This document shows positions 964 through 15,045 of a stretch of 64,000 nucleotides of DNA, one piece after another; the first letter of the stretch is position 1, and each line of letters starts with the position of its first letter. This DNA comes from Accumulibacter sp. (GTDB lineage: Bacteria > Pseudomonadota > Gammaproteobacteria > Burkholderiales > Rhodocyclaceae). A program made the position numbers and the translations under genes. The stretch spans positions 1 through 64,000 of the forward strand of contig NZ_JAMTDQ010000057.1 of assembly GCF_023806635.1 (NCBI RefSeq), in the 5' to 3' direction. The notes under the pieces are model-generated. The model did no database searches, had not been told where the DNA came from, and worked only from the letters and a program-made list of their open reading frames with translations.

Positions 964-1069
964 CCTCGGTCATGGCGCGAGGCTGCGCGGTCAGCAATTG
1001 GGGCGGCGCCAGAAAGCCCTCATTCCCGCGCAAGCGCGAACGCACTGTGGATAACCCGTTTCCATACCG
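964..1069. repeat. 106-bp repeat D, copy 1
   Basis: Starts CCTCGGTCATGGCGCGAGG and ends near CCGTTTCCATACCG. It is about 80% identical to 4,273-4,380. No recognisable protein is encoded. The rest of 820-1,210 shows no gene I can name. Confidence 0.6.
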
Positions 1070-1210
1070 TCATGCCTCAGTGTCACCCTCGTCAGCCAGG
1101 AATGCACACACTCGCGGTCGTTACCGGCAGACTACACCGGCGCGCCCCGCTTCTACGGCGGCGAACTTGACGAAAACTGGACGACGAACTGCCGACTGCT
1201 GTGTAATAAA

Positions 1211-1515
1211 GGTGACAGTATTTGGAATTCATTCCAGAGACCAGCCCGCTCACCAAGCGCTTCGAGCGGAGTCTGCGAATGGATCACCCGGGTCTGGCAC
1301 GCCTCGTCGCCGAAGACGCGCCTGACCGCTTCCATGGCTACCGGCGCCTGCGCGGTCGCCGTCGCCCCGTGGCGAGAGGGTTGGTAAACAGGGTCCGGCC
1401 CAGCGCTTTGCCGAGGTCGTCGGTGTTGGGCTTGAATGCCAGTCCCCGGACGGGAACATGGCGTCCGTTGAGTCGCCGAAGCAGGCTCTCCGGGCAACAA
1501 CAGCATACTCTCACC
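1211..1515. mobile_element. GGTGACAG-bounded element U1 (305 bp) with UDP-glucose dehydrogenase remnant
   Basis: Left end GGTGACAGTATTTGGAATTC; right end CATACTCTCACC, a decayed inverted copy. On the minus strand it holds pieces of the UDP-glucose 6-dehydrogenase C-terminal domain: a degenerate LAFKPNTDD region, VAMEAVRRVFGDEA and TPLEALGERAGLWNEF, split by a frameshift. It belongs to the 305-bp class with U5, U6, U9 and U10. Confidence 0.75.
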
Positions 1516-1590
1516 GCTTATCGAGGTGTTCGGGCGCCCAAGCATCCAGTTGCTCCACCGTCGCCGCCACAAGCCGTCGGTGCGCCCACT

Positions 1591-1991
1591 CCGGCAGCGG
1601 CCCGAGACGGTGCTCGAACTGGCGTCTACTACGGCCCTGCTCCGGTCCGTGCCTTGCAGGCCGGCAATTGCCCGCCGTCCTCCCGGCGTCTGCCAGCGCG
1701 CGCTCGCGGGCACGCTACCGCCATGCCCGAATGCGCTGGCATCCAGCAGACTGGTCGTCCTTCGTTCCGTGCACAGCGACCGTGACGGGTCGCGGTTCGC
1801 TTCGAAAGGGCTCGCAGCGCGCGGCCCTTGCGGGGAACCGCCGTTCGCGCCCGAATGGCCGGTCGCGCCTGGTCAACGCCAAGCCACACGGCGAGCGCAC
1901 CGACGTGCGACTGCCCCGGGATGATCCCAGTGCCCGGTCCGGTGGCGTGTGAATTGCTTCACGGTTGCCGCAGCCCTGCACTGCCAAAAAA
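1591..1991. repeat. 401-bp repeat C, copy 1
   Basis: Starts CCGGCAGCGGCCCGAGACGG and ends at the A run before U2. It is nearly identical to 8,069-8,469 and 11,302-11,702, each exactly 401 bp. Several frames are open for 80-90 codons on both strands, but none resembles a known family. In all three copies it directly abuts a 275-bp element on its right. Confidence 0.8.
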
Positions 1992-2266
1992 GGGGACGGT
2001 ATATGAATTCATTTCAGAGACCAGCACTCTCCGGTCGGTTCGAGCGCAGTCTGCGGGTGCCTCACGCGGATCGCCACTGCCTTCATGGCGACCGATTCGT
2101 ACGCGGTCGACCCGCAGTGCGAAGGGGTCGGCGAGCAGCCTCCGGCTCAGCACTTCAGGCCGGTCGCCGGTGTTCGGCTTGAACGCCAACGTCCAGGCGG
2201 CAACATGGCGTCTCTCGAGGTTGCCAAAGCATCGTCCGTTCCACGGACGAAAAGCATACAGTCACC
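1992..2266. mobile_element. GGTGACAG-bounded element U2 (275 bp) with UDP-glucose dehydrogenase remnant
   Basis: Left end GGGGACGGTATATGAATTC; right end AGCATACAGTCACC. The minus strand encodes AFKPNTGDRPEVLSRRLLAD, recognisable as the LAFKPNTDDxREAPSRxLL signature of UDP-glucose/GDP-mannose dehydrogenases, with frameshifts after it. The 275-bp class (U2, U7, U11) differs in sequence from the 305-bp class and may come from a separate capture or an older divergence. Confidence 0.75.
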
Positions 2267-2385
2267 GTTGCCACGCAGCACTTGCGGATCCTGGCCGTGC
2301 GGCTCGATGATCAGTCGCACTTGATGGCCATGGCACCGTCCTCGTTGTGAGGACAGAGCACGGGACTACCCTCGCCGGGCCCGCT
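2267..2385. repeat. 119-bp extension of the large composite repeat, copy 1
   Basis: Repeated at 8,745-8,863 almost without change. It extends the duplicated composite U-C-U block to about 1,175 bp. No gene recognised. Confidence 0.7.
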
Positions 2386-2430
2386 GGATGCACCCATGTC
2401 ACGATCATCGCCAATCTGGAAACCATGGTT

Positions 2431-2766
2431 CTACTCGAGTGCGGCCAGCGCCAGCTCGGGTGCCTTGTCCAACACTTTGAACAATGCCTTTGCCGCACCT
2501 GCCGGGGAGCGTTTGCCTTGTTCCCAATTGCGGATGGTCTCGACAGAGACATCAATACGTCGCGCAAACTCGACCTGGCTGAGACCAAGGCGCGTTCTGA
2601 CCCTGCGTGCGTACCGGGCCGCATCCAGCCGGGCTTCGGATTCATCCGCCGCGCGCTGTGCAGCGATGCTCTCTTCAGTCGTGGCGTCCACACGTGCCGG
2701 GTCGATACGCCCAAGTGTCGGCCCATCCGCAGCGGCGGCATCAATCGTCACTCGAACCATTTCCAT
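2431..2766 (-). CDS. XRE-type HTH antitoxin (BrnA-like position)
   Basis: This 111-residue protein (start MEMVRVTIDA at 2,766) has a C-terminal helix-turn-helix: RTRLGLSQVEFARRIDVS, then VETIRNWEQGKRSP, roughly residues 55-90. That is the XRE/Cro pattern of antitoxins that follow BrnT-type toxins. The gene overlaps the end of the toxin reading frame by 26 bp, suggesting translational coupling, with toxin first and antitoxin second. It probably binds its own promoter. The coding frame looks intact although the toxin is broken. Confidence 0.8.
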   Translation of the reverse strand: MEMVRVTIDAAAADGPTLGRIDPARVDATTEESIAAQRAADESEARLDAARYARRVRTRLGLSQVEFARRIDVSVETIRNWEQGKRSPAGAAKALFKVLDKAPELALAALE

Positions 2767-3020
2767 AGTACCGAACCTCACGCTGGTTGGCCTCGCGCGC
2801 CGAAATGATGCGCATGGCGTCATGACGAGGGGTGTAAACCACTACAAAAATCGCTGCTCGATCGCACCGATCACCCGATGGCGTTTCTCGCCATGGCTGT
2901 ATCTGGTATCGGCCTGCACCATTCGATCGGGATCAAAGAACACCTGCGCCGCGTAGGCAAAATCAAGACCGCGCTCTCTGAAGCACAAGTCGCTCGTTGC
3001 TTCATCCCACTCAGCGACAA
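2741..3020 (-). pseudogene. BrnT-family toxin, truncated start and frameshift
   Basis: The minus strand reads LVAEWDEATSDLCFRERGLD, then AYAAQVFFDPDRMVQADTRY and SHGEKRHRVIGAIEQRF, the BrnT pattern of EWDxxK, FDDP and a GExR-like turn. At a run of five T's near 2,850 the frame is lost. The C-terminal part continues in another frame as VVVYTPRHDAMRIISAREAN, matching the BrnT ending RIISARxA. The 5' end has no start codon because an element end (3,021) replaces it. BrnT is a ribonuclease toxin; this copy should be dead unless the frameshift is a sequencing error. Confidence 0.75.
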
Positions 3021-3045
3021 GGGGGACAGTATGGGAAATACCTCC
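3021..3045. repeat. Isolated GGGGACAG-type element end
   Basis: GGGGGACAGTATGGGAAATA matches the left-end consensus GGKGACAGTATATGAAATN. It sits exactly where the brnT start codon should be. No matching inverted end is seen nearby; 3,046-3,233 has no gene I can identify. Confidence 0.6.
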
Positions 3046-3233
3046 CGAAGAGGAGTCAGCCTGAAAAGAACCAGCAGATCTATGGTGGATAAGAGTCGTT
3101 ACCGAAGCATCGTACCGTCCAGGGAACAAAAGCCTAGCGCAACCGTTTCTCGGTCCACCGCTGGTACTGCGCAAGCCTCTGTCCGCCTGCTGACGTGACT
3201 GCGCCAGGGATCGGCTGGTCGCAAAGAATGTCT

Positions 3234-3671
3234 TCAGGCGTCCGGTAACCAGCCCTCATTGAGGACTTCTTCTTCCATCGCCCACGGACAGGCCTCGGGA
3301 AAGCAATCAAGGCCGCTTTCCCCAACCGCTTGCGCAACAGCCTTCGCCCACACCATCTCAAGCCATCGAGTTTCCTGGAGCTTGGGGGTGAGGCTTGGGG
3401 CGTCACTCAGTCCATAGGCAATCTCCTTGCGCTGCGCGAGGATGGTCTTTTCCCAACTGGCTCCCCGCCGCTCCGGCTGATACCGCCACTTGAGCAGATG
3501 AGCCATGAGAACCGACATCCGGCTCGCCAGTTCGCGCTGTTCGCTCTTGCCCACGTCTTCGATTTCCTCCGCGAGGTGGTCGCGGTCGAGCAGCTCCAAC
3601 CGCCCAGCACGAAGAAGGCTGGCCTGCTCGTTTGCCCATGCCACGATATCGGTTTCGTACCTGGTGGTCAT
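3234..3671 (-). CDS. DUF29 family protein
   Basis: This 145-residue protein starts MTTRYETDIVAWANEQASLL, followed by AEEIEDVGKSEQRELASRMS and HLLKWRYQPERR, the conserved DUF29 pattern. The family is common in cyanobacteria and proteobacteria, helical and often next to mobile or TA genes; its function is unknown. An earlier in-frame ATG at 3,695 exists but falls beside element U3, so 3,671 is preferred. The frame is intact. A dead paralogue lies at 13,070-13,402. Confidence 0.8.
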   Translation of the reverse strand: MTTRYETDIVAWANEQASLLRAGRLELLDRDHLAEEIEDVGKSEQRELASRMSVLMAHLLKWRYQPERRGASWEKTILAQRKEIAYGLSDAPSLTPKLQETRWLEMVWAKAVAQAVGESGLDCFPEACPWAMEEEVLNEGWLPDA

Positions 3672-3699
3672 ATCGACCTCCCAATGAAGTGCCAATGAA

Positions 3700-3845
3700 G
3701 GTGACAGTATATGAATTCATTCCAGAGACCAACCCGTTCACCAGGCGCTTCGATCGGAGTCTGCGGATGGCCAACCTGGACTAGGCACGCCTCGTCGCCG
3801 AACACGCGTTGGGCCGCTTTCCTGGCGACGAGCACGTGCGGAAAA
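3700..3845. mobile_element. GGTGACAG element U3, left part only
   Basis: Left end GGTGACAGTATATGAATTC, followed by the same UDP-glucose dehydrogenase tail as the 305-bp elements. After about 145 bp it is cut by another element end at 3,848. A TAG in the remnant shows it is not coding. Confidence 0.7.
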
Positions 3846-3847
3846 AC

Positions 3848-4042
3848 GGGGACAGTATAGGAAATGCCCTCGCTGGATTCGTCTCAAGGGTGCGAGTGAT
3901 TTGGCCCTGTTGACAGCGGTTGGAAAATCGACACAGCAGCAGCGGACAGCGGCCTGCATGTAGTGCGCCAACAAAAAGGGCGCACCGGGTCATTCACTTC
4001 GATCCCGGGCCCTCGCCCAAGTGCAGGGCAACCCGACTGATC
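3848..4042. repeat. GGGGACAG-headed repeat B, copy 1
   Basis: Begins GGGGACAGTATAGGAAATG and is about 88% identical to 6,004-6,178. It includes the last codons of a DUF3368-type toxin on the minus strand plus about 130 bp of unrecognised sequence up to the terminal motif. Repeat B shares only the terminal motif, not the interior, with the U elements. Confidence 0.65.
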
Positions 4043-4050
4043 GTAACCAA

Positions 4051-4261
4051 TCACCCCCCTACCGAGACGGCGGGCAAAGGCGGCATCGGTAGTCCCTGGC
4101 GGCCGGCCTGAAGGGCGGCGGTGAGGTAATCCCAAGCGGACGCCTTCCTTGCGCGACAAGTGTCGATGATGCTGGCGAGCAGCGCAAACGCTCGAGTTCC
4201 TTGCTCGCTGCGGGTACCGAAGCTCAGGCGACGAGCGATGCAAGAATAGTTTACTGTCACC
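4051..4261 (-). mobile_element. IS66-family transposase, C-terminal fragment
   Basis: The minus strand reads RRLSFGTRSEQGTRAFALLA, then DTCRARKASAWDYLTAALQA and ends PMPPLPAVSVGG. This is the usual C-terminus of IS66 TnpC (FGTRSExG, a TCR step, DYLTxA, PPxLLP). All catalytic residues are missing. Its upstream boundary is GGTGACAGTAAACTATTCTT, the same terminus that begins the right ends of the U elements, yet the interior is unrelated to them. Confidence 0.7.
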
Positions 4262-4272
4262 GTTTCTCCAGA

Positions 4273-4380
4273 CCTCGGTCATGGCGCGAGGTGTCGGGGG
4301 TTGTGAAGGATTGGGGCGGCGCCAGGAAGCCCTCATTCCCGCGCAAGCGCCAACGCACTTCGTGACCCGTTTCCGTACCG
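4273..4380. repeat. 108-bp repeat D, copy 2
   Basis: Partner of 964-1,069. Both copies lie beside fragments of sugar-nucleotide genes and beside a GGTGACAG-type end. No coding content recognised. Confidence 0.6.
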
Positions 4381-4441
4381 CCGTGTCTGCAGACGCGCCA
4401 AGCCGTTTCCCTGGCGACGGGGTCGAACGCGGTCGCCCCTC

Positions 4442-4490
4442 GTGGCGCCCAGGAGGGTTTCCACTTCGGTGGGGCGCAAGTAGCGGGGGT
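4442..4490 (-). pseudogene. Tiny GDP-mannose dehydratase fragment
   Basis: The minus strand encodes [15 protein letters not shown], the same motif as [15 protein letters not shown] in the intact gmd. Only 16 codons survive. It is joined downstream of an fcl start and a CCCTCTCCC-type repeat, so the piece is out of its normal order. Confidence 0.65.
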
Positions 4491-4515
4491 GTCGACCTGG
4501 ACGATGCATGACTGG

Positions 4516-4552
4516 CCCTCTCCCCCGGCCCCTCTCCCAGAGGGCGAGGGGG
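4516..4552. repeat. Dispersed CCCTCTCCC palindromic repeat
   Basis: CCCTCTCCCCCGGCCCCTCT followed by CCCAGAGGGCGAGGGGGA forms an imperfect hairpin. This pattern is a common dispersed intergenic repeat in proteobacteria. Here it interrupts the fcl fragment. Confidence 0.7.
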
Positions 4553-4553
4553 A

Positions 4554-4631
4554 ATTCTGGAGGCGTCGCATCAGCGCGGAACCGACCAGACCCCGATGGC
4601 CGGCGACGTAGATCTTGGCGTGTGTATCCAT
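4554..4631 (-). pseudogene. GDP-L-fucose synthase N-terminal fragment
   Basis: From the ATG at 4,631 the frame reads [20 protein letters not shown], then MRRLQ: the start and NAD-binding GxxGxxG motif of Fcl/WcaG (compare [14 protein letters not shown] in the intact gene at 19,828). It stops at the CCCTCTCCC repeat. It lies 10 bp downstream of the vapC gene at 4,641. Confidence 0.75.
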
Positions 4632-4640
4632 GGATGTAGG

Positions 4641-5075
4641 TCAGCGACCTGCAAGCGGGTTGACGTGTTTCAATCCCGGGAAACGTCGGAAATCGTTGTC
4701 CGCGGAATAGATGCTGTAACCCTGCTCCAGGGCCAATGCGGCGATATGTGCATCGGTGGTCAAGTTGCCCGACATGCCGGTCTGGACCAGCAAATTTCGC
4801 AGGACTGCCCAATGCCCGGCACCCGGCCCTACCAACCTGACGGCAGGCTGATCAAGCCATTCGTCGATATAGGCAATGGCGGATTCCGGCGACATGGGTT
4901 TTGCGAACACCCTGGGGTTCGTGCAAATGCGCAGGAATGCCAGCAGCACGACCAGCGGAATACCGACCACCGCCGCGCCCGAGAGGGTCTCTTCCCACCA
5001 GGCCCTCGCCTGCTTGTGCTGGGGCAGGTCGCTGTTGACCGCATAGATCAACAGGTTGGCGTCCACCAGTATCAC
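4641..5075 (-). CDS. vapC: VapC-type PIN-domain ribonuclease toxin
   Basis: This 144-residue PIN protein starts MILVDANLLIYAVNSDLPQH, with the first acidic residue in LVDAN, a central Glu in the WWEETL region, and TTDAHIAALALEQGYSIYSA then DNDFRRFPGL carrying the late acidic residues. All usual PIN acidic positions seem present, so it should be an active Mg-dependent RNase. It overlaps vapB by 4 bp (5,072-5,075), implying coupled translation and autoregulation by the complex. The pair sits between a dead gmd and a dead fcl fragment. Confidence 0.9.
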   Translation of the reverse strand: MILVDANLLIYAVNSDLPQHKQARAWWEETLSGAAVVGIPLVVLLAFLRICTNPRVFAKPMSPESAIAYIDEWLDQPAVRLVGPGAGHWAVLRNLLVQTGMSGNLTTDAHIAALALEQGYSIYSADNDFRRFPGLKHVNPLAGR

Positions 5076-5341
5076 TTGCGCTGCTCCAGCTTGGCACGGA
5101 TCGCGTCATCCTCAAGGCCATCTGCCAGTTGCAGCGCCTTGACCAGATCGATAGCCGCCGAAGGGGCCCCGAGGGAAACCGGCTTGAGGCGATAGGGCTT
5201 GAGACGCGGGGTGATTGGGCCCTGCAAACCCGCCAGCAAGGCTTCGTTAACCACTTGCTTGAAGGGCTTGCCCGCTTCTATGGCACGCCGCTTGAGTTCG
5301 TTGGCCAGACCATCTTCAATCGTCAAGGTTGTGCGCATCAC
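5072..5341 (-). CDS. vapB: VapB-type ribbon-helix-helix antitoxin
   Basis: This 89-residue protein starts MRTTLTIEDGLANELKRRAI (preceded by a second Met). A short beta strand and two helices at residues 1-45 form the ribbon-helix-helix DNA-binding fold, with a C-terminal tail that would wrap the toxin. It is upstream of and overlaps vapC. The frame is intact, so this is one of only two clearly complete vapBC pairs in the accessory region. Confidence 0.85.
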   Translation of the reverse strand: MMRTTLTIEDGLANELKRRAIEAGKPFKQVVNEALLAGLQGPITPRLKPYRLKPVSLGAPSAAIDLVKALQLADGLEDDAIRAKLEQRK

Positions 5342-5389
5342 TATGCCTCATCAATAGCATCAAGACATCATATCACAAGGGGGCGCCGC

Positions 5390-6003
5390 CTACTCGTCGT
5401 AATCCATGGCCTTGTAGCCGTGCTTCTTGACGAGTTCGTCCCGTTCGGCGGACTTGAGGTCTTCCCGCACCATCTCGGCCACCAACTCGTCGAAGGTGGT
5501 CTTCGGCACCCAGCCCAGCTTGGCCTTGGCCTTGGCGGGGTCGCCCAGCAGGGTTTCCACTTCGGCGGGGCGGAAGCATCTCGGGTCGACGGCGACGATG
5601 GGTAGGGGCTGGGTTGCCGGCGGTTGCCGGCTCCGCTTTGCCTTCTCGCAATGACGGCTTGCGGGGTTTCTGGGGTGGCCGCGCTTTTCGCAATGACGGC
5701 TTGCTGGGTTGCTGCGGTGGCTTCGCCGCCTCGCAATGACGAATTGACCCAATAGCCTTTTTCCCCTCAACGCCCTGGCCTTCCCAGCGGATTTGCATGC
5801 CCAGTTCCTGGGCGGCGGCGTTGACGAAGTCCCGCACGCTGTATTGCACGCCGGTGGCGATGACGAAGTCTTCCGGCCGGTCCTGTTGCAGCATGAGCCA
5901 CTGCATCTCCACGTAGTCCTTGGCGTGGCCCCAGTCCCGCTTGGCGTCCATATTGCCGAAGTAGAGGCAGTCTTGCAGGCCGAGTTTGATGCGACAGAAT
6001 AAA
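5390..6003 (-). pseudogene. gmd: GDP-mannose 4,6-dehydratase C-terminal half, interrupted by repeats
   Basis: Starting at an element end (6,004), the minus strand reads [20 protein letters not shown], then [20 protein letters not shown] and [20 protein letters not shown]. After GKKAIGSI it is interrupted by about 130 bp of GTCATTGCGAG-type repeats, then resumes in another frame as [17 protein letters not shown] and ends GYKAMDYDE at 5,390. The N-terminal NADP-binding half is missing. It is less than 80% identical to the intact gmd at 19,841, so it is probably from a different parent gene. Confidence 0.85.
5645..5747. repeat. Three GTCATTGCGAG-type repeats inside dead gmd
   Basis: TCGCAATGACGGCTTG-type units occur at 5,645, 5,688 and 5,730, separated by about 42 bp. 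They are the minus-strand form of the CGTCATTGCGAG dispersed repeat known from many bacteria. Their insertion splits the gmd remnant and shifts its frame. Confidence 0.7.
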
Positions 6004-6178
6004 GGGGACAGTATATGAAATACCCTCGCTGGATTCGTCTCAAGGGGGCGAGTGATTCTGCCCTGTTGAAAGCGGTTGGGAAATCGATACAGCAGCAGCG
6101 GACAGCGGCCTGCGTGCAGTGCGCCAACAAAAGGGGCTCCGGGGTCCTCGCCCAAGTGCAGGGCAACCCGACTGATCA
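6004..6178. repeat. GGGGACAG-headed repeat B, copy 2
   Basis: Begins GGGGACAGTATATGAAATAC and continues nearly as 3,848-4,042 up to CGACTGATC. It truncates the gmd remnant on its left and merges with the end of a DUF3368 toxin fragment on its right. Confidence 0.65.
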
Positions 6179-6344
6179 GCCCGGCATTGTAGTGGATGCC
6201 TTGTTGTCGCAGCGCTTGCGCGGCTTCATGGAATGACTGGATCAGGCCAGCCGACTTGGCTTTGGCAAGCACACCGAGCGTGCCTGTCACGTTAAGCCCA
6301 AGATACTCGGCGATGCGGCGGCCCTGGCGCTCGTCGATGGTCAC
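6147..6344 (-). pseudogene. DUF3368 (PIN-like toxin) C-terminal fragment
   Basis: The minus strand reads [20 protein letters not shown], then [15 protein letters not shown] and [14 protein letters not shown]: the conserved C-terminal half of DUF3368 proteins, PIN-like predicted toxins of TA pairs. The N-terminal half, including the first acidic residues, is missing and is replaced by a short spacer and element U4. No partner antitoxin is seen. Confidence 0.75.
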
Positions 6345-6363
6345 TCTGAATAGAGGGAATAGA

Positions 6364-6404
6364 GGTGACAGTATATGAAATTCATTCCAGAGACCGGGAA
6401 TAGA
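6364..6404. mobile_element. Truncated element U4 in tandem with U5
   Basis: GGTGACAGTATATGAAATTC plus CATTCCAGAGACCGGG gives only the first 36 bases of a U element, followed at once by a second left end at 6,405. Head-to-tail placement of two left ends shows that an element was inserted into, or recombined at, the start of another. Confidence 0.7.
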
Positions 6405-6709
6405 GGTGACAGTATATGAAATTCCTTCCAGAGACCGACCCGCTCAGCAAGCGCTTCGAGCGGAGTCTGCGGATGGATTACCTGGCTCAGGCGCGCCTCG
6501 TCGTCAAAGACGCGCCGGGCCACTTCCATGGCGACCAGCCCGCGCGAGGTCGCCGTCGCTTCGTGGCGAAGAGGTTGGTAAGCAGCGTCCGGCCCGGCGT
6601 TTTGCCGAGGTCGTCGGTATTCGGCTTGCATGCCAGCCCACGGACGGCAACATGGCGTCCGTTGAGTCGCCGAAGCATGCCCTCCGTGCAAGAACGGCAT
6701 ACCGTCACC
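6405..6709. mobile_element. GGTGACAG-bounded element U5 (305 bp)
   Basis: Left end GGTGACAGTATATGAAATTC; right end GGCATACCGTCACC. The minus strand gives RLNGRHVAVRGLACKPNTDD, LLTNLFAT, then in another frame LVAMEVARRVFDDEARL and [16 protein letters not shown]. Joined together these match the C-terminal domain of UDP-glucose 6-dehydrogenase. The frameshift sits at the same place as in U1, U6, U9 and U10. Confidence 0.8.
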
Positions 6710-7050
6710 GCTTCCCCGAAGCCGCGCGACAGCTCGACGGACTTCGGCAGGCGCAACACGCTTCTCTATCCGGATGATGCGGCCGACCGTGTTGGACTCT
6801 GCAGCCAGTTCACGGTCGCTGCTGGCGAACTGACGCGGCGTTCGAGCGGGTCAGGCCTGGAGGACAGGTCGGGCTTGTCCCGGTACGAGGCGCGTCAGGA
6901 CACCGGTGCCAAGTGGCTCTTTGACAACCTCGGCTGCAGTCGTTGCCGATGCGTGCGTCGCAACTTCTGATTCTCGTACCGAGTCCATGGAGCGTGCGGC
7001 AGGCAGGCCATCCTGCCTGGTCAGCCGCAGTCAGGGTGCGATCAGCGGCC
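6710..7050. other. No recognisable gene
   Basis: Between U5 and the vapC pseudogene, several 60-100 codon frames are open on both strands, but none has family-like motifs. A stretch near 6,740-6,800 (minus, NTVGRIIRIEKRVLRLPKS) has a plausible protein texture and may be a remnant of another small gene. Confidence 0.4.
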
Positions 7051-7443
7051 TCAACGGAGCAGATGCCCGGCGAGTTCGGCATCCAGGGGAAACCTGTCAT
7101 CCATGGAAATGAGTGTCGCTTCGTGCGTCAGTGCCGTCGCGACAATCAGTCGATCCTGCGGGTCGCGATGATGTTCGGCAAGCTGAACGGCAAGGCGGGC
7201 AACGCGTGGGGTGATCGGCAGCAGCCGGATGCCCGAACCATCGAGCGCTTTCTCGAACCACTCCTCTTCTGCACAGGGCAGGCCGATTCGGCCATGGTGT
7301 GCCGACCAGGCGACTTCGAAGCAGGAAATGGCCGAAACACCGACCGGCTCAGCACTTTCGATACGCTCGGTCTACGCCGATTGGAGGCGCATTTGATCCT
7401 CATCGATCCACCAAAGCCAGATGTGCGTGTCGAGAACGATCAT
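7051..7443 (-). pseudogene. vapC: VapC-type PIN toxin with in-frame amber stop
   Basis: The frame from 7,443 reads MIVLDTHIWLWWIDEDQMRL QSA, then TAG at codon 25, then continues open for about 105 codons: TERIESAEPVGVSAISCFEV, WFEKALDGSGIRLLPITPRV, EHHRDPQDRLIVATALTHEA and MDDRFPLDAELAGHLL. This is the LDTHxxLWW class of PIN toxins, with the HRDPxDR motif present. One nonsense change (TAG near 7,373) is the only defect seen. The ATG overlaps the antitoxin stop (ATGA). Confidence 0.85.
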
Positions 7444-7658
7444 CCAGGCAGCTCCCAGTCGCTTTCGGGAACGCTACCGAGAATATCGCCATGGATTTGA
7501 ACTCGGCCGGCAATGTGCGGGTGGGGACTCCGACCGACCGCAACCGCTTCATCGGCGGCGAGGACAATGATTTCGACGCGGCGGTTATTGAAGGCATCGG
7601 GCAGTTCAATCAGCACATGCCGATCCTTGACCTGCTCAAACAGTCGTTCCACTTGCAT
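7440..7658 (-). CDS. Antitoxin paired with LDTHIWLWW-type VapC
   Basis: This 72-residue protein starts MQVERLFEQVKDRHVLIELP with a GGAG ribosome site about 8 bases upstream; a longer frame begins at 7,685 but reaches the border of element U6. The stretch RHVLIELPDAFNNRRVEIIV resembles the small beta-rich antitoxins that precede this toxin class. It is intact, but its toxin carries a stop codon, so it may be an orphan. Confidence 0.7.
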   Translation of the reverse strand: MQVERLFEQVKDRHVLIELPDAFNNRRVEIIVLAADEAVAVGRSPHPHIAGRVQIHGDILGSVPESDWELPG

Positions 7659-7688
7659 GTGATGCTCTCCAAACTCCACCGACATAGA

Positions 7689-7993
7689 GGTGACAGTACA
7701 TGGAATTCATTCCAGAGACCAACCCGCTCACCAAGCGCTTCGAGCGGAGTCTGCGAATGGATCACCTGGGTCTGGCACGCCTCGTCGCCGAAGACGCGCC
7801 GGGCCGCTTCCAGGGCGACCGGCGCCTGCGCGGTCGCCGTCGCCCCGTGGCGAGAAGGTTGGTAAACAGTGTCCGGCCCGGCGCTTTGCCGAGGTCGTCG
7901 GTGTTCGGCTTGAATGCCAGCCCCCGGACGGCAACATGGCGTCCGTTGAGTCGTCGCAGCAGGCCCTCCAGGCAACAACAGCATACCCTTACC
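7689..7993. mobile_element. GGTGACAG-bounded element U6 (305 bp)
   Basis: Left end GGTGACAGTACATGGAATTC; right end CATACCCTTACCG is decayed. Same interior as U1 with about 95% identity: LVNLF region, then VALEAARRVFGDEA and TPLEALGERVGLWNEF on the minus strand. It starts the second copy of the 1.17-kb composite block. Confidence 0.75.
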
Positions 7994-8068
7994 GCTTATC
8001 GAGGTTTTCGGGCGCCCAAGCATCCAGTTGCTCCACCGTCGCCGCCACAAGCCGTCGGTGTGCCTACT

Positions 8069-8469
8069 CCGGCAGCGGCCCGAGACGGTGCTCGAACTGG
8101 CGTCTACTGCGGCCCTGCTCCGGTCCGTGCCTTGCAGGCCGGCGATTGCCCGCCGTCCTTCCGGCGTCTGCCAGCGCGCGCTCGCGGGCACGCTACCGCC
8201 ATGCCCGAATGCGCTGGCATCCAGCAGACTGGTCGTCCTTCGTTCCGTGCACAGCGACCGTGACGGGTCGCGGTTCGCTTCGAAAGGGCTCGCAGCGCGC
8301 GGCCCTTGCGGGGAACCGCCGTTCGCGCCCGAATGGCCGGTCGCGCCTGGTCAACGCCAAGCCACACGGCGAGCGCACCGACGTGCGACTGCCCCGGGAT
8401 GATCCCAGTGCCCGGTCCGGTGGCGTGTGAATTGCTTCACGGTTGCCGCAGCCCTGCACTGCCAAAAAA
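8069..8469. repeat. 401-bp repeat C, copy 2
   Basis: Near-identical to 1,591-1,991 and 11,302-11,702. It lies between U6 and U7. Confidence 0.8.
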
Positions 8470-8744
8470 GGGGACGGTATATGTATTCATTTCAGAGACC
8501 AGCACTCTCCGGTCGGTTCGAGCGCAGTCTGCGGACGCCTCACGCGGATCGCCACTGCCTCCATGGCGACCGATTCGCACGCGGTCGCCCCGCAGTGCGG
8601 AGGGGTCGGCGAGCAGCCTCCGGCTCGGCACTTCAGGCCGGTCGCCGGTGTTCGGCTCGAACGCCAACGTCCAGGCGGCAACATGGCGTCCCTCGAGGTT
8701 GCCAAAGCATCGTCCGTTCCACGGACGAAAAGCATACAGTCACC
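8470..8744. mobile_element. GGTGACAG-bounded element U7 (275 bp)
   Basis: Left end GGGGACGGTATATGTATTC; right end AGCATACAGTCACC. Minus-strand remnant AFEPNTGDRPEVPSRRLLAD, a decayed LAFKPNTDD motif. Same class as U2 and U11. Confidence 0.75.
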
Positions 8745-8863
8745 GTTGCCACGCAGCACTTGCGGATCCTGGCCGTGCGGCTCGATGATCAGTCGCACTT
8801 GATGGCCATGGCACCGTCCTCGTTGTGAGGACAGAGCACGGGATTACCCTCGCCGGGCCCGCT
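8745..8863. repeat. 119-bp extension of the composite repeat, copy 2
   Basis: Same as 2,267-2,385 with one or two changes. It ends at CGGGCCCGCTG, where U8 follows within 10 bp. Confidence 0.7.
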
Positions 8864-8873
8864 GTGTAATAAA

Positions 8874-9142
8874 GGTGACAGTATATGAATTCATTCGACA
8901 GACCAACCCGTTCACCAAGCGCTTCGAGCGGAGTCCGCGGATGGCCAACCTGGATCAGAAACGCCTCGTCGCCGAAGACGCGTTGGGCCGCTTCCGTGGC
9001 GAAAAGGTTGGTAAGCAGCGTCCGGCCCGGCGCCTTGCACAGGTCGTCCGTGTTCGGCTTGAACGCGTGTCCCCAGACGGCAACATGGCGCCCGTTGAGT
9101 CGCCGAAGCATGCCTGCCACGCAAGAATAGTATACTGTCACC
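8874..9142. mobile_element. GGTGACAG-bounded element U8 (269 bp), frame-restored
   Basis: Left end GGTGACAGTATATGAATTC; right end GTATACTGTCACC, the best-preserved inverted pair in the window. Compared with the 305-bp class it lacks 36 bp, and this removes the frameshift. The minus strand is therefore open through LRRLNGRHVAVWGHAFKPNT, DDLCKAPGRTLLTNLFATEA, AQRVFGDEAF and TPLEALGERVGLSNEF, a clear UDP-glucose dehydrogenase C-terminal domain of about 85 residues. Confidence 0.85.
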
Positions 9143-9263
9143 GTTTCTCGCAGTCAGCCAGGTGCGCTTCGTCGATGCTCCCTTCTTCGCGTACAGCCAC
9201 CCGTCGCGCCGCCGCATGCGCCAGACCACGCCGGCTTCGCTTTCGCGAAGGTCGTCCGTGACG

Positions 9264-10307
9264 TCAGTGATCCTTGAAGACCTCTTCCAGCGTCGTGGCG
9301 TCCAGGATGTTCTCGGCCCATTGCTCCAGTTCTTCGACGGTGGCGGCGTTCAGCCGAGCCAGTGTCTCCGCGCTGGGCGGGCCGAAGCGGCGCGTGAGTT
9401 GGCGTTCGAGGAGCGCAGACTCCCCTTGCCGAATGCCTTGCTGCATTCCTTGCCGAATGCCTTGCTGCATTCCTTGCCGCATGCCTTGCTGCATGCCTTG
9501 CTGCATTCCTTGCTGCATGCCTTGCTGCATGCCTTTCTCAATGCCGATACGTTCTACCGAGGTGATGTAGGGCATGGCTCGGTTCCTCTCCAGTTGTTCG
9601 ATGTCTTGCCAGAGTTGATTCTGCAGCTCTTTGGGCACTTGCATCATCCAGTCGATGACGCTGAACAGGTCAATGATGCGTTGCTTGTCCCAGTTGCGTT
9701 CGTAGAGCAGTTTGGCCAGCCGCCATTTTGCAGCAAGCCTTTGCCCGTCGTCGCCCTTGGTTTGCTGGGTTAGCAGGTGAGCGGCAGTAACCAGGGCGAA
9801 AGGGTTGGGGTCGACCAGCAGCGCCTGGGCTTGCGGCTGGTAGTCGAGCAGCTTTGCCGCGGGAAAATCGAGGTAGTGCCGGCAACCGAAGAGTTCATAT
9901 CCATAGCTTTGCGGCTTCCAGCGTGGACGGTCGTCGGCAAGAACGGCGAGGCTGGCGATGGGGCGTCGGTATTTGTCGTAGAGACGGTAGTTGTACGTAA
10001 AGAGACGCTCGGCGAAGTCGCCGGCTGGGTCGCCCTGCACTTCGACGTGGACGTACACCCAGTGTTCGCCGCCGTCGTGGGTGGCGACCTGGACGAGTTT
10101 GTCGAGGAGCCGCTTGCCGAGTTCGGCATCTCTGACGATCTGGGCGAGTTCCTGATCAAGGAAGGTGTAGCCGCGGTTCCAGTCGATCTGCCGATGCGCG
10201 TCTGGAAAGTAGAACGCGATGAACTCGGGAAAGTAGCGCGTGACGGCGTCTTTCCAGGGAGTGTCGTAGTCGTCGTTGGCGACGGCGGGCTCGAGGGGCG
10301 GGTTCAT
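9264..10307 (-). CDS. Rpn-family PD-(D/E)XK nuclease / putative transposase, copy 1
   Basis: This 347-residue protein starts MNPPLEPAVANDDYDTPWKD. The core at residues 15-230 has the PD-(D/E)XK features of the Rpn (recombination-promoting nuclease, YhgA-like) family, including VYVHVEVQGD with the E-x-Q catalytic pair. A low-complexity linker of nine MQQG-type units follows. The last 60 residues (ALLERQLTRRFG to LEEVFKDH) form a DUF4351 domain. Rpn proteins are linked to recA-independent recombination and phage defence. It is nearly identical to the gene at 13,407-14,390 and a paralogue of 12,054-13,022. Degenerate GGTGACAG-type ends lie on both sides. Confidence 0.85.
   Translation of the reverse strand: MNPPLEPAVANDDYDTPWKDAVTRYFPEFIAFYFPDAHRQIDWNRGYTFLDQELAQIVRDAELGKRLLDKLVQVATHDGGEHWVYVHVEVQGDPAGDFAERLFTYNYRLYDKYRRPIASLAVLADDRPRWKPQSYGYELFGCRHYLDFPAAKLLDYQPQAQALLVDPNPFALVTAAHLLTQQTKGDDGQRLAAKWRLAKLLYERNWDKQRIIDLFSVIDWMMQVPKELQNQLWQDIEQLERNRAMPYITSVERIGIEKGMQQGMQQGMQQGMQQGMRQGMQQGIRQGMQQGIRQGESALLERQLTRRFGPPSAETLARLNAATVEELEQWAENILDATTLEEVFKDH
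9424..9537. repeat. In-frame 12-bp VNTR in rpn copy 1
   Basis: Nine tandem 12-bp units encode MQQG with MRQG and IRQG variants. The sister gene at 13,407-14,390 has four units at the same place. The linker separates the nuclease core from DUF4351. Confidence 0.85.
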
Positions 10308-10316
10308 CGTGCGGAA

Positions 10317-10340
10317 AGGGGGGAGAGGATATGCATTTCC
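10317..10340. repeat. Degenerate element end upstream of rpn copy 1
   Basis: GGGGGGAGAGGATATGCATTTCC resembles GGGGACAGTATATGAATTTCC. An equivalent GGGGGGACAGGATATGAACTTCC lies upstream of the third rpn gene at about 14,400. Confidence 0.5.
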
Positions 10341-10352
10341 TCTGAGAATAGA

Positions 10353-10657
10353 GGTGACAGTATATGCAATTCATTCCAGAGACCAACCCGCTCACCAAGC
10401 GCTTCGAGCGGAGTCTGCGGATGGATCACCTGGATCAGGCGCACCTCGTCGCCGAAGACGCGCCGGGCCGCTGCCGTGGCGACCAGCGCGTGCGCGGCCG
10501 CCGTCGCCCCATGGCGAAAAGGTTGGTAAGCAGCGTCCGGCCCGGCGCTTTGAACAGGTCGTCGGTGTTCGGGTTGAACGCTAGTCCCCGGACGACAACA
10601 TGGCGTATGTTGAGTCGCCGAAGCATGCCCTCCACGCAAGAATAGTTTGCTGTCACC
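10353..10657. mobile_element. GGTGACAG-bounded element U9 (305 bp)
   Basis: Left end GGTGACAGTATATGCAATTC; right end TAGTTTGCTGTCACC. Minus strand: LRRLNIRHVVVRGLAFNPNT, DDLFKAPGRTLLTNLFA, then in a second frame RHGATAAAHALVATAAARRV and TPLEALGERVGLWNEL. It is about 98% identical to U10, and the next 33 bp after both elements are identical too. Confidence 0.85.
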
Positions 10658-10691
10658 GTTTCTCGGCGTGGTGGGGAGTGAACGGTTACCG

Positions 10692-10816
10692 GTGATGACC
10701 TGGACGCTGATCACCGGCCGGCGCCGGAGGATCTCAAAGCAGCACTGGCGCTTGTCGGAGTCTTCGTCCAACGAGTAAACGACAATATTGGTATCAGCGA
10801 AGAACCTTGCGGTCAT
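10692..10816 (-). pseudogene. PIN toxin N-terminal fragment, second copy
   Basis: Same start as the fragment at 371-468 (MTARFFADTNIVVYSLDEDS), continuing a little further to RRRPVISVQVI before similarity is lost at the sequence following U9. Missing the C-terminal two thirds. Confidence 0.7.
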
Positions 10817-10958
10817 AGCACTCGTCCCGATGGTATTGTCCCGACCAAGCGCACGCGTGCTTCACAAATTCCGCCCAATCTGCCGCCTCGTCGCCCTCGG
10901 CGGACTCAGCCGTCCGGTGTTTGGACTTCAGGTAACCCACAAAGTCGAGCACTTCACG
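10719..10958. repeat. 240-bp exact repeat, copy 2
   Basis: Identical by eye to 371-610. It ends at CACTTCACG, immediately followed by the AATAGA that precedes U10. Confidence 0.85.
10794..10958 (-). pseudogene. Antitoxin fragment, second copy
   Basis: The C-terminal 54 codons of the antitoxin at 446-667 (REVLDFVGYLKSKHR onward) with the N-terminus replaced by U10. It cannot be expressed from its own start. Confidence 0.7.
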
Positions 10959-10964
10959 AATAGA

Positions 10965-11269
10965 GGTGACAGTATATGAAATTCATTCCAGAGACCAACG
11001 CGCTCACCAAGCGCTTCGAGCGGAGTCTGCGGATGGATCACCGGGATCAGGCGCACCTCGTCGCCGAAGACGCGCCGGGCCGCTGCCGTGGCGACCAGCG
11101 CGTGCGCGGCCGCCGTCGCCCCATGGCGAAAAGGTTGGTAAGCAGCGTCCGGCCCGGCGCTTTGAACAGGTCGTCGGTGTTCGGGTTGAACGCTAGTCCC
11201 CGGACGACAACATGGCGTATGTTGAGTCGCCGAAGCATGCCCTCCACGCAAGAATAGTTTGCTGTCACC
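10965..11269. mobile_element. GGTGACAG-bounded element U10 (305 bp)
   Basis: Left end GGTGACAGTATATGAAATTC; right end TAGTTTGCTGTCACC. Differs from U9 at only a few bases. It truncates the antitoxin fragment on its left. The 33-bp right flank is the same as that of U9, so one was copied together with its flank. Confidence 0.85.
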
Positions 11270-11301
11270 GTTTCTCGGCGTGGTGGGGAGTGAACGGTTA
11301 C

Positions 11302-11702
11302 CCGGCAGCGGCCCGAGACGGTGCTCGAACTGGCGTCTACTACGGCTCTGCTCCGGTCCGTGCCTTGCAGGCCGGCGATTGCCTGCCGTCCTCCCGGCGT
11401 CTGCCAGCGCGCGCTCGCGGGCACGCTACCGCCATGCCCGAATGCGCTGGCATCCAGCAGACTGGTCGTCCTTCGTTCCGTGCACAGCGACCGTGACGGG
11501 TCGCGGTTCGCTTCGAAAGGGCTCGCAGCGCGCGGCCCTTGCGGGGAACCGCCGTTCGCGCCCGAATGGCCGGTCGCGCCTGGTCAACGCCAAGCCACAC
11601 GGCGAGCGCACCGACGTGCGACTGCCCCGGGATGATCCCAGTGCCCGGTCCGGTGGCGTGTGAATTGCTTCACGGTTGCCGCAGCCCTGCACTGCCAAAA
11701 AA
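11302..11702. repeat. 401-bp repeat C, copy 3
   Basis: Third copy of repeat C, here joined to the U9/U10-type right flank instead of the 75-bp spacer seen in copies 1 and 2. Confidence 0.8.
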
Positions 11703-11977
11703 GGGGACGGTATATGAATTCATTTCAGAGACCCGCACTCTCCGATCGGTTCGAGCGCAGTCTGCGGGTGCCTCACGCGAATCGCCACTGCCTCCAAGGC
11801 GACCGATTGGCACGCGGTCGCCCCGCAGTGCGAAGGGGTCGGCGAGCAGCCTCCAGCTCGGCACTTCAGGCCGGTCGCCGGTGTTGGGCTTGAACGCCAA
11901 CGTCCAGGCGGCAACATGGCGTCTATCGAGGTTGCCAAAGCATCGTCCGTTCCCCGGACGAAAGGTATACCGTCACC
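11703..11977. mobile_element. GGTGACAG-bounded element U11 (275 bp)
   Basis: Left end GGGGACGGTATATGAATTC; right end GGTATACCGTCACC. Minus remnants AFKPNTGDRPEVPSWRLLAD and, in another frame, VALEAVAIRVRHPQTALEPI. It ends 76 bp from the stop of the second rpn gene. Confidence 0.75.
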
Positions 11978-12053
11978 GTTTCTCGAAGTCTTGACGTGGC
12001 CCTGCGACGTCGCAGCACGATGGGGTGTGCTGGATGGGGTGTGCTGCTTCTTG

Positions 12054-13022
12054 CTACTGCGGGCGCTGATCGAAGACTTCGTCCAGGGACTCGGCATCGA
12101 GCACCTTGATCGCCCATTCTTCCAGTTGATCGACATCGGCGGTGCTCAGCCGAACCTGGACCGCATCGGGGAGCGCGCCAAAGCGACGCGCGAGCAGGCG
12201 TTTAAGGAGGGCAGCCTCACCTTCCTGCCGGCCTTCCTGCCGGCCTTCCTGGCGGCCTCTCTCGACTCCGAAGCGTTCTGCAGAAGTGACGTAAGGCATG
12301 ATGACCCTCCTTTCCAGTGTGTAGACTTCCTGCAGCAGTCGTTGCTCCAGATCTGTCGGCAGCCGCATCAGCCAGTCGATGACCGCGAACAGATCGATGA
12401 TGCGCTGCCTGTCCCAATTGCGCTCGTAGAGCAGCTTGGCCAGCCGCCATTTTGCCGCATAGCGCTGTTCCGGGTCACCCTTGGTGCGCCGGGTAAGAAG
12501 GTGAGCAGCGGTGACCAGTGCGAAGGGGTTGGAGTCTTCAAGCAGGGGCTCGCTCTGGTTGGCGTAGTCGAGGAGCTTGACCACGGGAAAGCGGATGCCG
12601 ACCTCGCAGCCGAACAGTTGATAGCCAAACCCGTCCGGCTTCCAGTTTTCGCGTTCGTCGGCCAGCACGGCCAGACTGGCAACCGGACGACGGTAGCGGT
12701 CGTAGAGGCGGTAGTTGTAGGTGAACAGGCGCTCTGGAAAGTCGGCATCCTGCTGGCCCTGGACTTCGACGTGGATGTAGACCCATTGCTCACCTCCGGC
12801 GCGCGTCGCGACCTGCACCAGACAGTCAACCAGACGCTTGCCCAGTTGGGCGTCCTGCACCACCTGGGCGAGTTCCTGTTCGAGGAAAGTGTGCGGCAGT
12901 TGCCAGTCGATCTCGGCGTGGGCACGGGGGAAGTAGAAGGCCATGAACTCCGGGAAGTAGCGTGTCAGGGCTTCTTTCCACGGGGTGTCGTAGTCATCGC
13001 TGGGGAGAGTCGGCTCTTCCAT
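12054..13022 (-). CDS. Rpn-family PD-(D/E)XK nuclease / putative transposase, copy 2
   Basis: This 322-residue protein starts MEEPTLPSDDYDTPWKEALT. It has the same architecture as its neighbours: nuclease core with VYIHVEVQGQ, a short linker (three RQEG units instead of MQQG), and a C-terminal DUF4351 (ALLKRLLARRFGALPDAVQV). It is about 65-70% identical to the other two copies, so it diverged long before they duplicated. The linker has the same repeat phase but a different sequence, suggesting independent expansion. Confidence 0.85.
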   Translation of the reverse strand: MEEPTLPSDDYDTPWKEALTRYFPEFMAFYFPRAHAEIDWQLPHTFLEQELAQVVQDAQLGKRLVDCLVQVATRAGGEQWVYIHVEVQGQQDADFPERLFTYNYRLYDRYRRPVASLAVLADERENWKPDGFGYQLFGCEVGIRFPVVKLLDYANQSEPLLEDSNPFALVTAAHLLTRRTKGDPEQRYAAKWRLAKLLYERNWDRQRIIDLFAVIDWLMRLPTDLEQRLLQEVYTLERRVIMPYVTSAERFGVERGRQEGRQEGRQEGEAALLKRLLARRFGALPDAVQVRLSTADVDQLEEWAIKVLDAESLDEVFDQRPQ

Positions 13023-13069
13023 GGGTCAGAGACAGGCGTGGCGAAGGTGATCGAGGTCGGTTCGCCAGC

Positions 13070-13402
13070 CGGCTGACTCACTCATGCGCCTCGTTCGCCC
13101 GAGGAATCCGGCTCCTACGGGAGGCTGGCGTGGCTCGGTGGCCCTTGGACCATCTCCTGGCGCGGCGCGAGGAGGGTCTTTTCCCGACTGGCTTCCCGCC
13201 GTTCCGGCAGGGGTCGCCACTTGAGCAAATGGACCAGAAGAACCGACATCCGGCTGGCAGGTGCGCGCTGTTCGCTCTTGCCCACGTCTTCGATTTCCTC
13301 CGTGAGGTGGTCGCTGTCGAGCGGTTCGAACCGTCAGGCACGAAGAAGGCTGGCCTACTCGTTTGCCCATGCCACGACATCGGTTTCGTACTTGGTGGTC
13401 AA
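13070..13402 (-). pseudogene. DUF29 family protein, degraded
   Basis: The minus strand reads TTKYETDVVAWANE, a TAG, ASLLRA, a TGA, then DSDHLTEEIEDVGKSEQRAP and SRMSVLLVHLLKW, matching the intact DUF29 protein at 3,234-3,671. The start codon has become TTG, and the C-terminal third is unrecognisable. It lies between two rpn genes. Confidence 0.8.
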
Positions 13403-13406
13403 ATGC

Positions 13407-14390
13407 TCACTGATCCTTGAAGACCTCTTCCAGCGTCGTGGCGCCCAGGATGTTCTCGGCCCATTGCTCCAGTTCTTCGACGGTGGCGGCCTGCAGCCGG
13501 GCCCGTGTCTCCGCGCTCGGCGGGCCGAAGCGGCGGCTGAGTTGGCGTTCGAGGAGCGCAGACTCCCCTTGCCGAATGCCTTGCTGCATGCCTTGCTCCA
13601 TGCCTTGCTGCATGCCTTTCTCAATGCCGATACGTTCTACCGAGGTGATGTAGGGCATGGCTCGGTTCCTCTCCAGTTGTTCGATGTCTTGCCAGAGTTG
13701 ATTCTGCAGCTCTTTGGGCACTTGCATCATCCAGTCGATGACGCTGAACAGGTCAATGATGCGTTGCTTGTCCCAGTTGCGTTCGTAGAGCAGTTTGGCC
13801 AGCCGCCATTTTGCAGCAAGCCTTTGCCCGTCGTCGCCCTTGGTTTGCTGGGTTAGCAGGTGAGCGGCAGTAACCAGGGCGAAAGGGTTGGGGTCGACCA
13901 GCAGGGCTTCGGCTTGCGGCTGGTAGTCGAGCAGCTTTACCGTGGGAAATTCGAGGTAGTGCCGGCAACCGAAGAGTTCATATCCATAGGTTTGCGGCTT
14001 CCAGTGTGGACGGTCGTCAGCAAGAACGGCGAGGCTGGCGATGGGGCGCCGGTATCTGTCGTAGAGACGGTAGTTGTAGGTGAAGAGGCGTTCGGCGAAG
14101 TCACCCTCCTGGCCACCTTGCACTTCGATGTGCACGTACACCCAGTGTTCGCCGCCGTCGTGGGTGGCGACCTGGACGAGTTTGTCGAGGAGCCGCTTGC
14201 CGAGTTCGGCATCTCTGACGATCTGGGCGAGTTCCTGATCAAGGAAGGTGTAGCCGCGGTTCCAGTCGATCTGCCGATGCGCGTCTGGAAAGTAGAACGC
14301 GATGAACTCGGGAAAGTAGCGCGTGACGGCGCCTTTCCAGGGAGTGTCGTAGTCGTCGTTGCCGACGGCGGTCTCGAGGGGCGGGTTCAT
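13407..14390 (-). CDS. Rpn-family PD-(D/E)XK nuclease / putative transposase, copy 3
   Basis: This 327-residue protein starts MNPPLETAVGNDDYDTPWKG. It is near-identical to copy 1 (9,264-10,307) at DNA level, except for fewer linker repeats (MQQG, MEQG, MQQG, IRQG) and scattered changes around the catalytic region (VYVHIEVQGGQ). The DUF4351 end is LEEVFKDQ. The upstream flank, including the degenerate element end near 14,400, is also shared with copy 1, so the duplicated unit was larger than the gene. Confidence 0.85.
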   Translation of the reverse strand: MNPPLETAVGNDDYDTPWKGAVTRYFPEFIAFYFPDAHRQIDWNRGYTFLDQELAQIVRDAELGKRLLDKLVQVATHDGGEHWVYVHIEVQGGQEGDFAERLFTYNYRLYDRYRRPIASLAVLADDRPHWKPQTYGYELFGCRHYLEFPTVKLLDYQPQAEALLVDPNPFALVTAAHLLTQQTKGDDGQRLAAKWRLAKLLYERNWDKQRIIDLFSVIDWMMQVPKELQNQLWQDIEQLERNRAMPYITSVERIGIEKGMQQGMEQGMQQGIRQGESALLERQLSRRFGPPSAETRARLQAATVEELEQWAENILGATTLEEVFKDQ

Positions 14391-14629
14391 CGTGCGGAAA
14401 GGGGGGACAGGATATGAACTTCCTCAAGAGAAGAGCACCTTGACGGCGCCCGCCGCCTGCTTGCCGTCCTTGTGCGTCATCGTGGGGCACCCGGAGGGCG
14501 AGAGCTTCAAATAAAGGTGACAGTATATGAAATACCTTTGGTGAGTTGCCGGTGCCGGAACGTGTCCCGCTGCTGCCTGACGATCTCACTGTCGCGCGCG
14601 GTGACGCAGGCATGGCCGCGCGCCACGGA
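14391..14629. other. Junction of small fragments with two element ends
   Basis: Contains GGGGGGACAGGATATGAACTTCC near 14,400 and GGTGACAGTATATGAAATAC at 14,516. Between them the minus strand reads GCPTMTHKDGKQAAGAVKVL with a stop, probably the last codons of an unidentified gene. No complete gene is present. Confidence 0.45.
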
Positions 14630-15045
14630 TCAGAGTCGTTCCAGATTCACGATGCAGGCGGCGAAATCCCGGAAGTCATTCAGGTTCCGCTGACAAATGC
14701 TGTGCACGATGTGCCAGTCAATGGCGTCGTAATTGTGGAGGCGATGCTGCGGAATCCGACCGCCTTCTTCATGCGGATGGCCAGGAGCGGGCTGATTAGG
14801 CCAAGGCTTGCGAGAGCTTCAAAGCTTTGCCCCATGGTGCTTGGCGCGGGGACGTCGCGGCTGGCGATCAAGTGGGCCGCCAGATCGACGAAGACTTGCA
14901 CGGCGCGGGTCAGATTCAGCGTGATGATGTCCTGGGCGTCAACATCACGCTCCAGGCTTGCCGCATCAAGCGGGCATTTCTCCTTCACCCTGAGCAGAAA
15001 GCGGCGGAGGGACTCGAGCTTCTGCTCGACTACCTGCCGATCCAT
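14630..15045 (-). pseudogene. hepT: HepT-family toxin with frameshift at its active-site motif
   Basis: The frame from 15,045 reads MDRQVVEQKLESLRRFLLRV, then DIITLNLTRAVQVFVDLAAH and FEALASLGLISPLLAIRMKK, the HEPN/DUF86 fold. At FRSIA the frame is lost by one base. Continuing in the next frame gives HNYDAIDWHIVHSICQRNLN and stops at 14,630. The family's catalytic Rx4-6HxY motif would be R-S-I-A-(V)-H-N-Y, so the missing base lies inside it. The start overlaps mntA by 16 bp. Confidence 0.85.

Follow-up and report, generated by a model that had tools for sequence, protein, structure and literature searches.

The closest described relatives of the structure reported here are the TIRYT/TIRtron elements (Di Nocera et al. 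2013, PMC3733652), which have been linked to subclass 2.1 of Quentin et al. 2018 (PMC6006769). In the portions of the two reports available to us, such an element consists of a Y1 transposase gene placed between long terminal inverted repeats (TIRs) with the consensus GGGGWSAS (PMC3733652, PMC6006769), extra copies of the TIR occur single, paired and clustered (PMC3733652), and the TIRYTs of subclass 2.1 are said to have a C-terminal HTH domain (PMC6006769). The window analysed here comprises bases 1–64,000 of contig C57 (99,531 bp) in the 4.47-Mb genome of Accumulibacter sp. (G000). In contrast to the TIRYTs/TIRtrons, a pair of TIRs in this window frames a fragment of a host gene, ugd2, in about ten copies. 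The resulting units are TIR-bounded segments with captured gene DNA, resembling miniature inverted-repeat transposable elements (MITEs). The type of their ends is known, while a gene fragment packaged and multiplied between such ends is unusual.

Nine complete units lie at positions 1211–11977, all on the plus strand (five of 305 bp, three of 275 bp and one of 269 bp), accompanied by remnants. Remeasurement reproduced the predicted lengths and positions of all nine, and a truncated copy (3700–3840) and a detached right end (4240–4268) are present as well. The array is composed as follows:

1205..11985, plus strand: whole unit array, with the left end of U1 and the right end of U11 as outer edges; the outer flanks are nearly joined in relatives
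1211..1515, plus strand: U1, 305 bp
1992..2266, plus strand: U2, 275 bp
3700..3840, plus strand: truncated unit keeping its left end and adjoining a DUF29 gene; a unit-type piece occupies the matching site in G015
3848..4268, plus strand: left-end motif, followed by a different inside and the detached unit right end (4240–4268)
6364..6404, plus strand: nested partial left end directly before U5
6405..6709, plus strand: U5, 305 bp
7689..7993, plus strand: U6, 305 bp
8470..8744, plus strand: U7, 275 bp
8874..9142, plus strand: U8, 269 bp, with perfect 12-bp inverted ends
10353..10657, plus strand: U9, 305 bp
10965..11269, plus strand: U10, 305 bp, copy of U9 inside a 345-bp duplication (99.1%)
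11703..11977, plus strand: U11, 275 bp

As predicted, the complete units are bounded by GGKGACRGTATA-like ends inverted relative to each other. The left and right 12-base ends of one unit agree at 7 to 12 of 12 positions, U6 showing the lowest value (7) and U8 a perfect match. All units and left ends share one orientation, as direct repeats. Solitary left ends, with no unit behind them, begin at 3022, 3848, 6004, 6364, 14403 and 14516 (at most one mismatch in 11 bases). The inside of the 3848..4268 segment contains a piece that recurs at 5997–6177; by our own reading this inside is putatively of DUF3368 type.

The terminal bases of the units, which the original prediction had proposed to compare with autonomous elements, match the ends of one in the same genome. 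At C24:8501-9276 the open reading frame (ORF) of a Y1 transposase (254 amino acids as called) is enclosed by inverted GGTGACAGTATAC (8501) and GGGGACAGTATAC (9276). The protein matches the profiles NF047646 (82 bits, with a cut-off of 80) and PF01797, and HVH and YVENNP are visible in its translation. Compared with the GGGGWSAS consensus, this element has GGGGACAG at one end and, at the opposite end, the variant GGTGACAG, which departs from the consensus by one base. The unit ends are TIRs of a TIRYT, a RAYT-related single-strand transposase of the HUH Y1 type, and they are not new, since the motif matches the consensus published for TIRYT/TIRtron TIRs as far as the two reports were accessible (PMC3733652, PMC6006769). 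The original prediction had named membership of the motif in an already described family as evidence against itself, and it is this membership that was found. At an E value of 0.001 the only Pfam match of the 254-residue protein is Y1_Tnp, with no C-terminal HTH domain, and for this reason we do not assign it to subclass 2.1. A text search of the literature with the letters of the motif returned, among the matches listed, no title on a bacterial element.

The exact motif GGKGACAGTATA occurs in 32 copies in the genome (none for the reversed control pattern), with bare TIR copies scattered across many contigs. This differs from the accessible part of the 2013 report, where 'A. phosphatis', taken here as Accumulibacter phosphatis, is given with two TIRYTs and no TIR repeats (PMC3733652). 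Candidatus Accumulibacter is the source of relatives of the C24 transposase at 87–95% identity, and the same ends are also found at its relatives in other phyla. Flanks were surveyed at 31 of the 41 loci, those of near-full length (the other 10, being short matches, were left out), within a range of up to 300 bp upstream, or 60 bp inside. GGKGACAG is present upstream in 24 of these 31 relatives, inverted downstream in 15 and on both sides in 12 (1, 0 and 0 for the reversed control), and the 12-mer with at most one mismatch in 19, 13 and 11, respectively (control 0, 0 and 0). Among 28 Accumulibacter genomes the number of motifs tracks this transposase: the six genomes that hold it at 76–100% identity contain 32 (G000), 24 (G027), 39 (G023), 35 (G021), 18 (G003) and 7 (G013) exact copies, and the remaining 22 contain 0–4 (17 of them have 0). 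The reversed motif matched twice in the 28 genomes, both times in G010. No exact copy is present in G007, which has a partial transposase match (50%), and at the transposase loci of the genus with 27–42% identity the motif lies on both sides only at L189, with one stray copy at L175.

Exact motifs paired within 500 bp in the six motif-rich genomes are inward-facing in 17 cases, outward-facing in 2 and in the same direction in 12. Without contigs C57 and G023:C165, inward-facing pairs outnumber outward ones 16 to 2 (~0.0013, binomial, calculated by hand). The 19 TIR-bounded segments that were compared, U9 included, are for the most part alike in little except their ends; one of them (G021:C40) looks like a transposase in decay. 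Another TIR-bounded family, of ~310 bp and 84–91% alike, is represented by C24:17566-17875 of G000 (L056/L057), by L102:7102-7411 and by L226; it adjoins a ugd1 gene or a piece of it in G000 and G021, and occurs in G023 too. Locus L102 (G021:C15:40000-54000) contains ugd1 in one complete piece and three partial ones, within a region rich in TIR motifs. TIR motifs are also found nested or head-to-tail, tens of bases apart (6364–6405 of the window, C24:14536-14565 of G000, and L141). A 66-bp inverted TIR pair at G000:C4:30424-30489 has the same flanks 2.4–3.5 kb apart in G003, G015, G023 and G025, which excludes it as a clean insertion. The TIR on C43 sits in a stretch missing from G015, the left border of which is not sharply placed.

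The cargo of the units is a piece of UDP-glucose 6-dehydrogenase (UGD). Translation of the minus strand confirmed the predicted C-terminal part of this enzyme. All five 305-bp units have their UGD-like stretches split over two frames, while U8 has a single open frame of 89 codons from end to end, UGD throughout, and is thus a fragment without a frame break. The 'dead' status originally given to the domain follows from the fragmentary cargo of all nine units and from the frame breaks of the 305-bp units. Two ugd types exist in the genus, of which ugd1 (C24:17881 onward) is less similar to the units than ugd2. Full-length ugd2 is present in G025, G017, G023, G027 and G051, and each unit holds ~233 nucleotides (nt) of it (nt ~931–1163 of the G025 ORF as sliced). 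In the one unit that was aligned to ugd2, U6, the match extends to the left end, past the WKEF codons.

A tree of 16 unit-type and 7 ugd sequences sets the units apart from every one of the 7 (branch support 100) and groups them with the ugd2 of G025 (support 94); support within the units is partly low. The units form one clade and share one ancestor, and the cargo derives from the second ugd paralogue, ugd2, which is intact in sister species. Alignment and tree thus bear out the earlier proposal of a captured host gene fragment and name the gene.

Remnants of ugd2 persist in three sister genomes. The remnant in G025 and G019 consists of nt 944–1160 (to 1136 in G019) fused to 595–707, and in the remnant of G015 nt 955–1159 adjoin 624–707, with 117–468 further on. 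The left end begins the remnant in G025 and G015, and a motif scan detected no right end on the remnants of G015, G025 and G019. Additionally, G025 holds one unit with both ends; two-ended units are seen in G000, G003, G021 and G025. In G017 the ugd2 gene is intact with its neighbours, no unit is present in the 17 kb read, and the exact motif is absent genome-wide.

Part of the copy number of the units is plain segmental duplication. Positions 1206–2386 equal 7684–8864 at 96.8%, a segment with two units and the spacer listed below, and 10346–10690 equal 10958–11302 at 99.1%, the 345-bp duplicate with U9 and U10.

1681..1985, plus strand: spacer A, present in three copies (the others from 8161 and 11392)

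Spacer A adjoins units in G025 and the ugd2 remnant in G019. Counted over the nine complete units, there are 7 different left contexts and 6 different right ones, and the junctions fall no more than a few bases from the same end. In G015, G025 and two places of G019 the outer flanks of the array (955–1204 and from 11986 on) directly follow each other except for ~21 bp, and the left junction that U5 forms together with its nested left end interrupts a stretch which G021, G023 and G025 have unbroken. The check for empty sites and target duplications that had been suggested yielded one-sided empty sites at U1, U5 and U11 and a two-sided one for the whole array only, with ~21 bp lost. No clean two-sided empty site for any single unit was found in the relatives compared, and no target duplication was seen at the units. 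At the DUF29 and vapB-like sites a relative already has the left-end motif with something else behind it, which fits an exchange at the motif rather than insertion.

In the genomes searched, the units multiplied locally and are confined to one locus per genome. In the own genome they match C57 only, except for 62 bp in ugd1 on C24 (40 of 116 and 40 of 46 first-look candidates were scored). The suggested search of related genomes was carried out in depth on eight sister genomes (40 candidates scored per genome): seven hold unit-type sequence, as complete or left-end pieces, each on a single contig, and G017 has only ugd2. In the case of G015, which is a single contig, its two lie within 2 kb. 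Further matches of 25–60 bp are found on other contigs, G021:C20, G003:C170 and G023:C65. When U10 was compared with 200 relatives, 3 candidates being scored in each genome, 72 of them gave a match, but one of at least 250 bp was seen only in G003, G021 and G025, all of this genus; a plasmid search with U10 gave one record only, from Burkholderia, covering 20% of the query. Of the predicted non-autonomous, MITE-like nature, the ends shared with a transposase element of the same genome stand; dispersed mobility is not supported, in view of one contig per genome and the larger duplications.

The units are part of a wider module array, which adjoins a block (C57:17346 onward) common to G015, G025 and G021. 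Its modules comprise rpn-like genes (DUF4351), DUF29, BrnT, HTH and PIN proteins, gmd fragments and the ugd2 units; the DUF3368 and vap labels of other modules are presumptive, being our own reading. Over eight genomes, the own one included, the order of the modules varies and their orientation is constant (ugd2 and epimerase were given in coding sense, a minus sign denoting the same orientation as the units). The rpn-like genes of the window are the following:

9264..10307, minus strand: rpn-like gene with a DUF4351 domain; further copies at 12054–13022 and 13407–14390
13407..14390, minus strand: rpn-like gene copy with a left-end motif (one mismatch) at 14403, 13 bp beyond the start codon

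The two paralogues of the 9264..10307 gene match the Rpn model TIGR01784 below its cut-off. The copies differ in length (347, 322 and 327 amino acids), and 12-bp tandem repeats of the CCTTGCTGCATG type occupy 9424–9543 within the gene. A role of the left end as promoter (TATACT on the minus strand, tens of bases 5' of start codons in several places) was considered and rejected, as a consensus scan of 1000–14700 gave 1 site against a shuffle mean of 2.4. Rfam at the gathering threshold reports one tRNA in the window and nothing else, and 53–335, at the contig start, is an IS200-type transposase remnant 97% identical to a stretch of G025.

In respect to the origin of the array, we consider it somewhat probable that part of a decaying ugd2 became enclosed by a pair of TIRs and that the framed repeat then spread locally by recombination between direct repeats. 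One TIR would have truncated the 3' end of a ugd2 copy in a sugar-nucleotide/toxin-antitoxin locus, and a second, inverted TIR would have come to lie ~233 nt upstream, framing the dead gene piece between two element ends. The framed piece could then have multiplied inside the locus, mainly through recombination of direct repeats, with or without the help of a transposase, and the same recombination would reorder the toxin-antitoxin and rpn-like modules. In this account we infer the sequence in which the TIRs arrived as well as the recombination step, and any transposase-driven movement of units would be equally hypothetical. Several observations weigh against this history. The 7 left and 6 right contexts, with their junctions near the same end, fit repeated transposition too, and relatives lack any left end at the U1 and U5 sites, so that something carrying a left end inserted there. 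Framing of the gene piece could instead have happened within a moving element, in a single step. The succession of the TIRs is deduced from three genomes, and an earlier right end could have been lost with the 707/944 deletion. Moreover, G015 and G025 have unit-type sequence without a close transposase copy, and part of the history therefore lies outside what is seen.

Should the units be true non-autonomous MITE-like elements, moved whole by TIRYT with strongly local, strand-biased insertion, the duplications would be secondary. The same boundaries in many flanks, the two-ended units in four genomes and the transposase with matching ends all agree with this, and the one-way orientation would fit strand-specific insertion, such as that of IS608. 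We nevertheless regard whole-unit movement as possible but doubtful: unit-type sequence keeps to one contig per genome (in 7 relatives and the own genome) while bare TIRs lie on many contigs, a two-sided empty site is lacking for every single unit, and at the DUF29 and vapB-like sites of a relative the left-end motif is already there without a unit. It is less probable still that the array is a graveyard, in which a decaying ugd2 and chance TIRs were copied passively by replication slippage and segmental duplication and the ends had no role. The 1206–2386/7684–8864 and U9/U10 duplications and the mosaic of gmd, ugd and toxin-antitoxin fragments are what such a process would leave, yet where the flanks of copies differ, the shared sequence breaks off near the element ends and not at random, and the ends stand at the same ugd2 bases in several species. 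The varying order and constant orientation of the modules in 8 genomes also recall an integron-like cassette array with the left end as the recombination site for one-way toxin-antitoxin and rpn-like modules, and a full-length integron integrase gene (491 bits) is indeed present elsewhere in the genome (L231, G000:C33:3427-4371). This explanation is highly improbable, as the motif belongs to the ends of a different transposase family and no exact GGKGACAGTAT was found in the 20 kb of C33 read; crude attC scans gave no candidate on C57, but none on the integrase contig C33 either.

A broader proposal, which we put forward tentatively and think unlikely to hold, is that TIRYT ends make new composites by framing DNA between inverted copies. 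Packaging of the ugd2 piece would have been a single event, older than the separation of several Accumulibacter species and followed by amplification, and the one-way ends would act as a hub shuffling toxin-antitoxin and rpn-like modules at one site. RAYT-type transposases are known above all for moving very small palindromes, and here a repeat packages gene DNA between such ends. If true, the locus would offer a natural test of how bacterial non-autonomous elements start, with the stages of birth possibly readable in sister species, and of how toxin-antitoxin arrays get reordered. If recombination between direct repeats acted alone, the locus would still show clearly how solo transposon ends can drive genome plasticity on a local scale.

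Among the known systems, REPINs/BIMEs share with the units two inverted ends related to those of a Y1 transposase and a proposed mobile unit, according to the accessible parts of the respective reports (PMC3116915, PMC2817692). The units differ in having no GTAG-tagged palindrome at their ends, in the ~230 bp of gene DNA inside and in not being dispersed. A GTAG or GTGG foot was not seen at the unit ends, which are GGKGACRGTATA-like as read from the letters, without a hairpin calculation. With bacterial MITEs the units share the size class of 70–300 bp and the inverted ends, as far as that comparison can be drawn from the available text (PMC3733652). A further likeness is that the unit ends match those of an autonomous element. 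In contrast to bacterial MITEs, the units are confined to one locus, show no target duplication and have ends of a Y1 transposase, the transposases of known MITEs being mostly DDE enzymes; the dispersed copies at independent sites that mark a MITE were not found in the own genome and the 7 unit-bearing relatives. Hypervariable toxin-antitoxin gene arrays occupy a fixed place, where modules of one orientation stand in a different order from species to species, and the locus described here has the same organization. It is set apart from them by the TIRYT ends and the repeated fragment of ugd2 that punctuate its modules.

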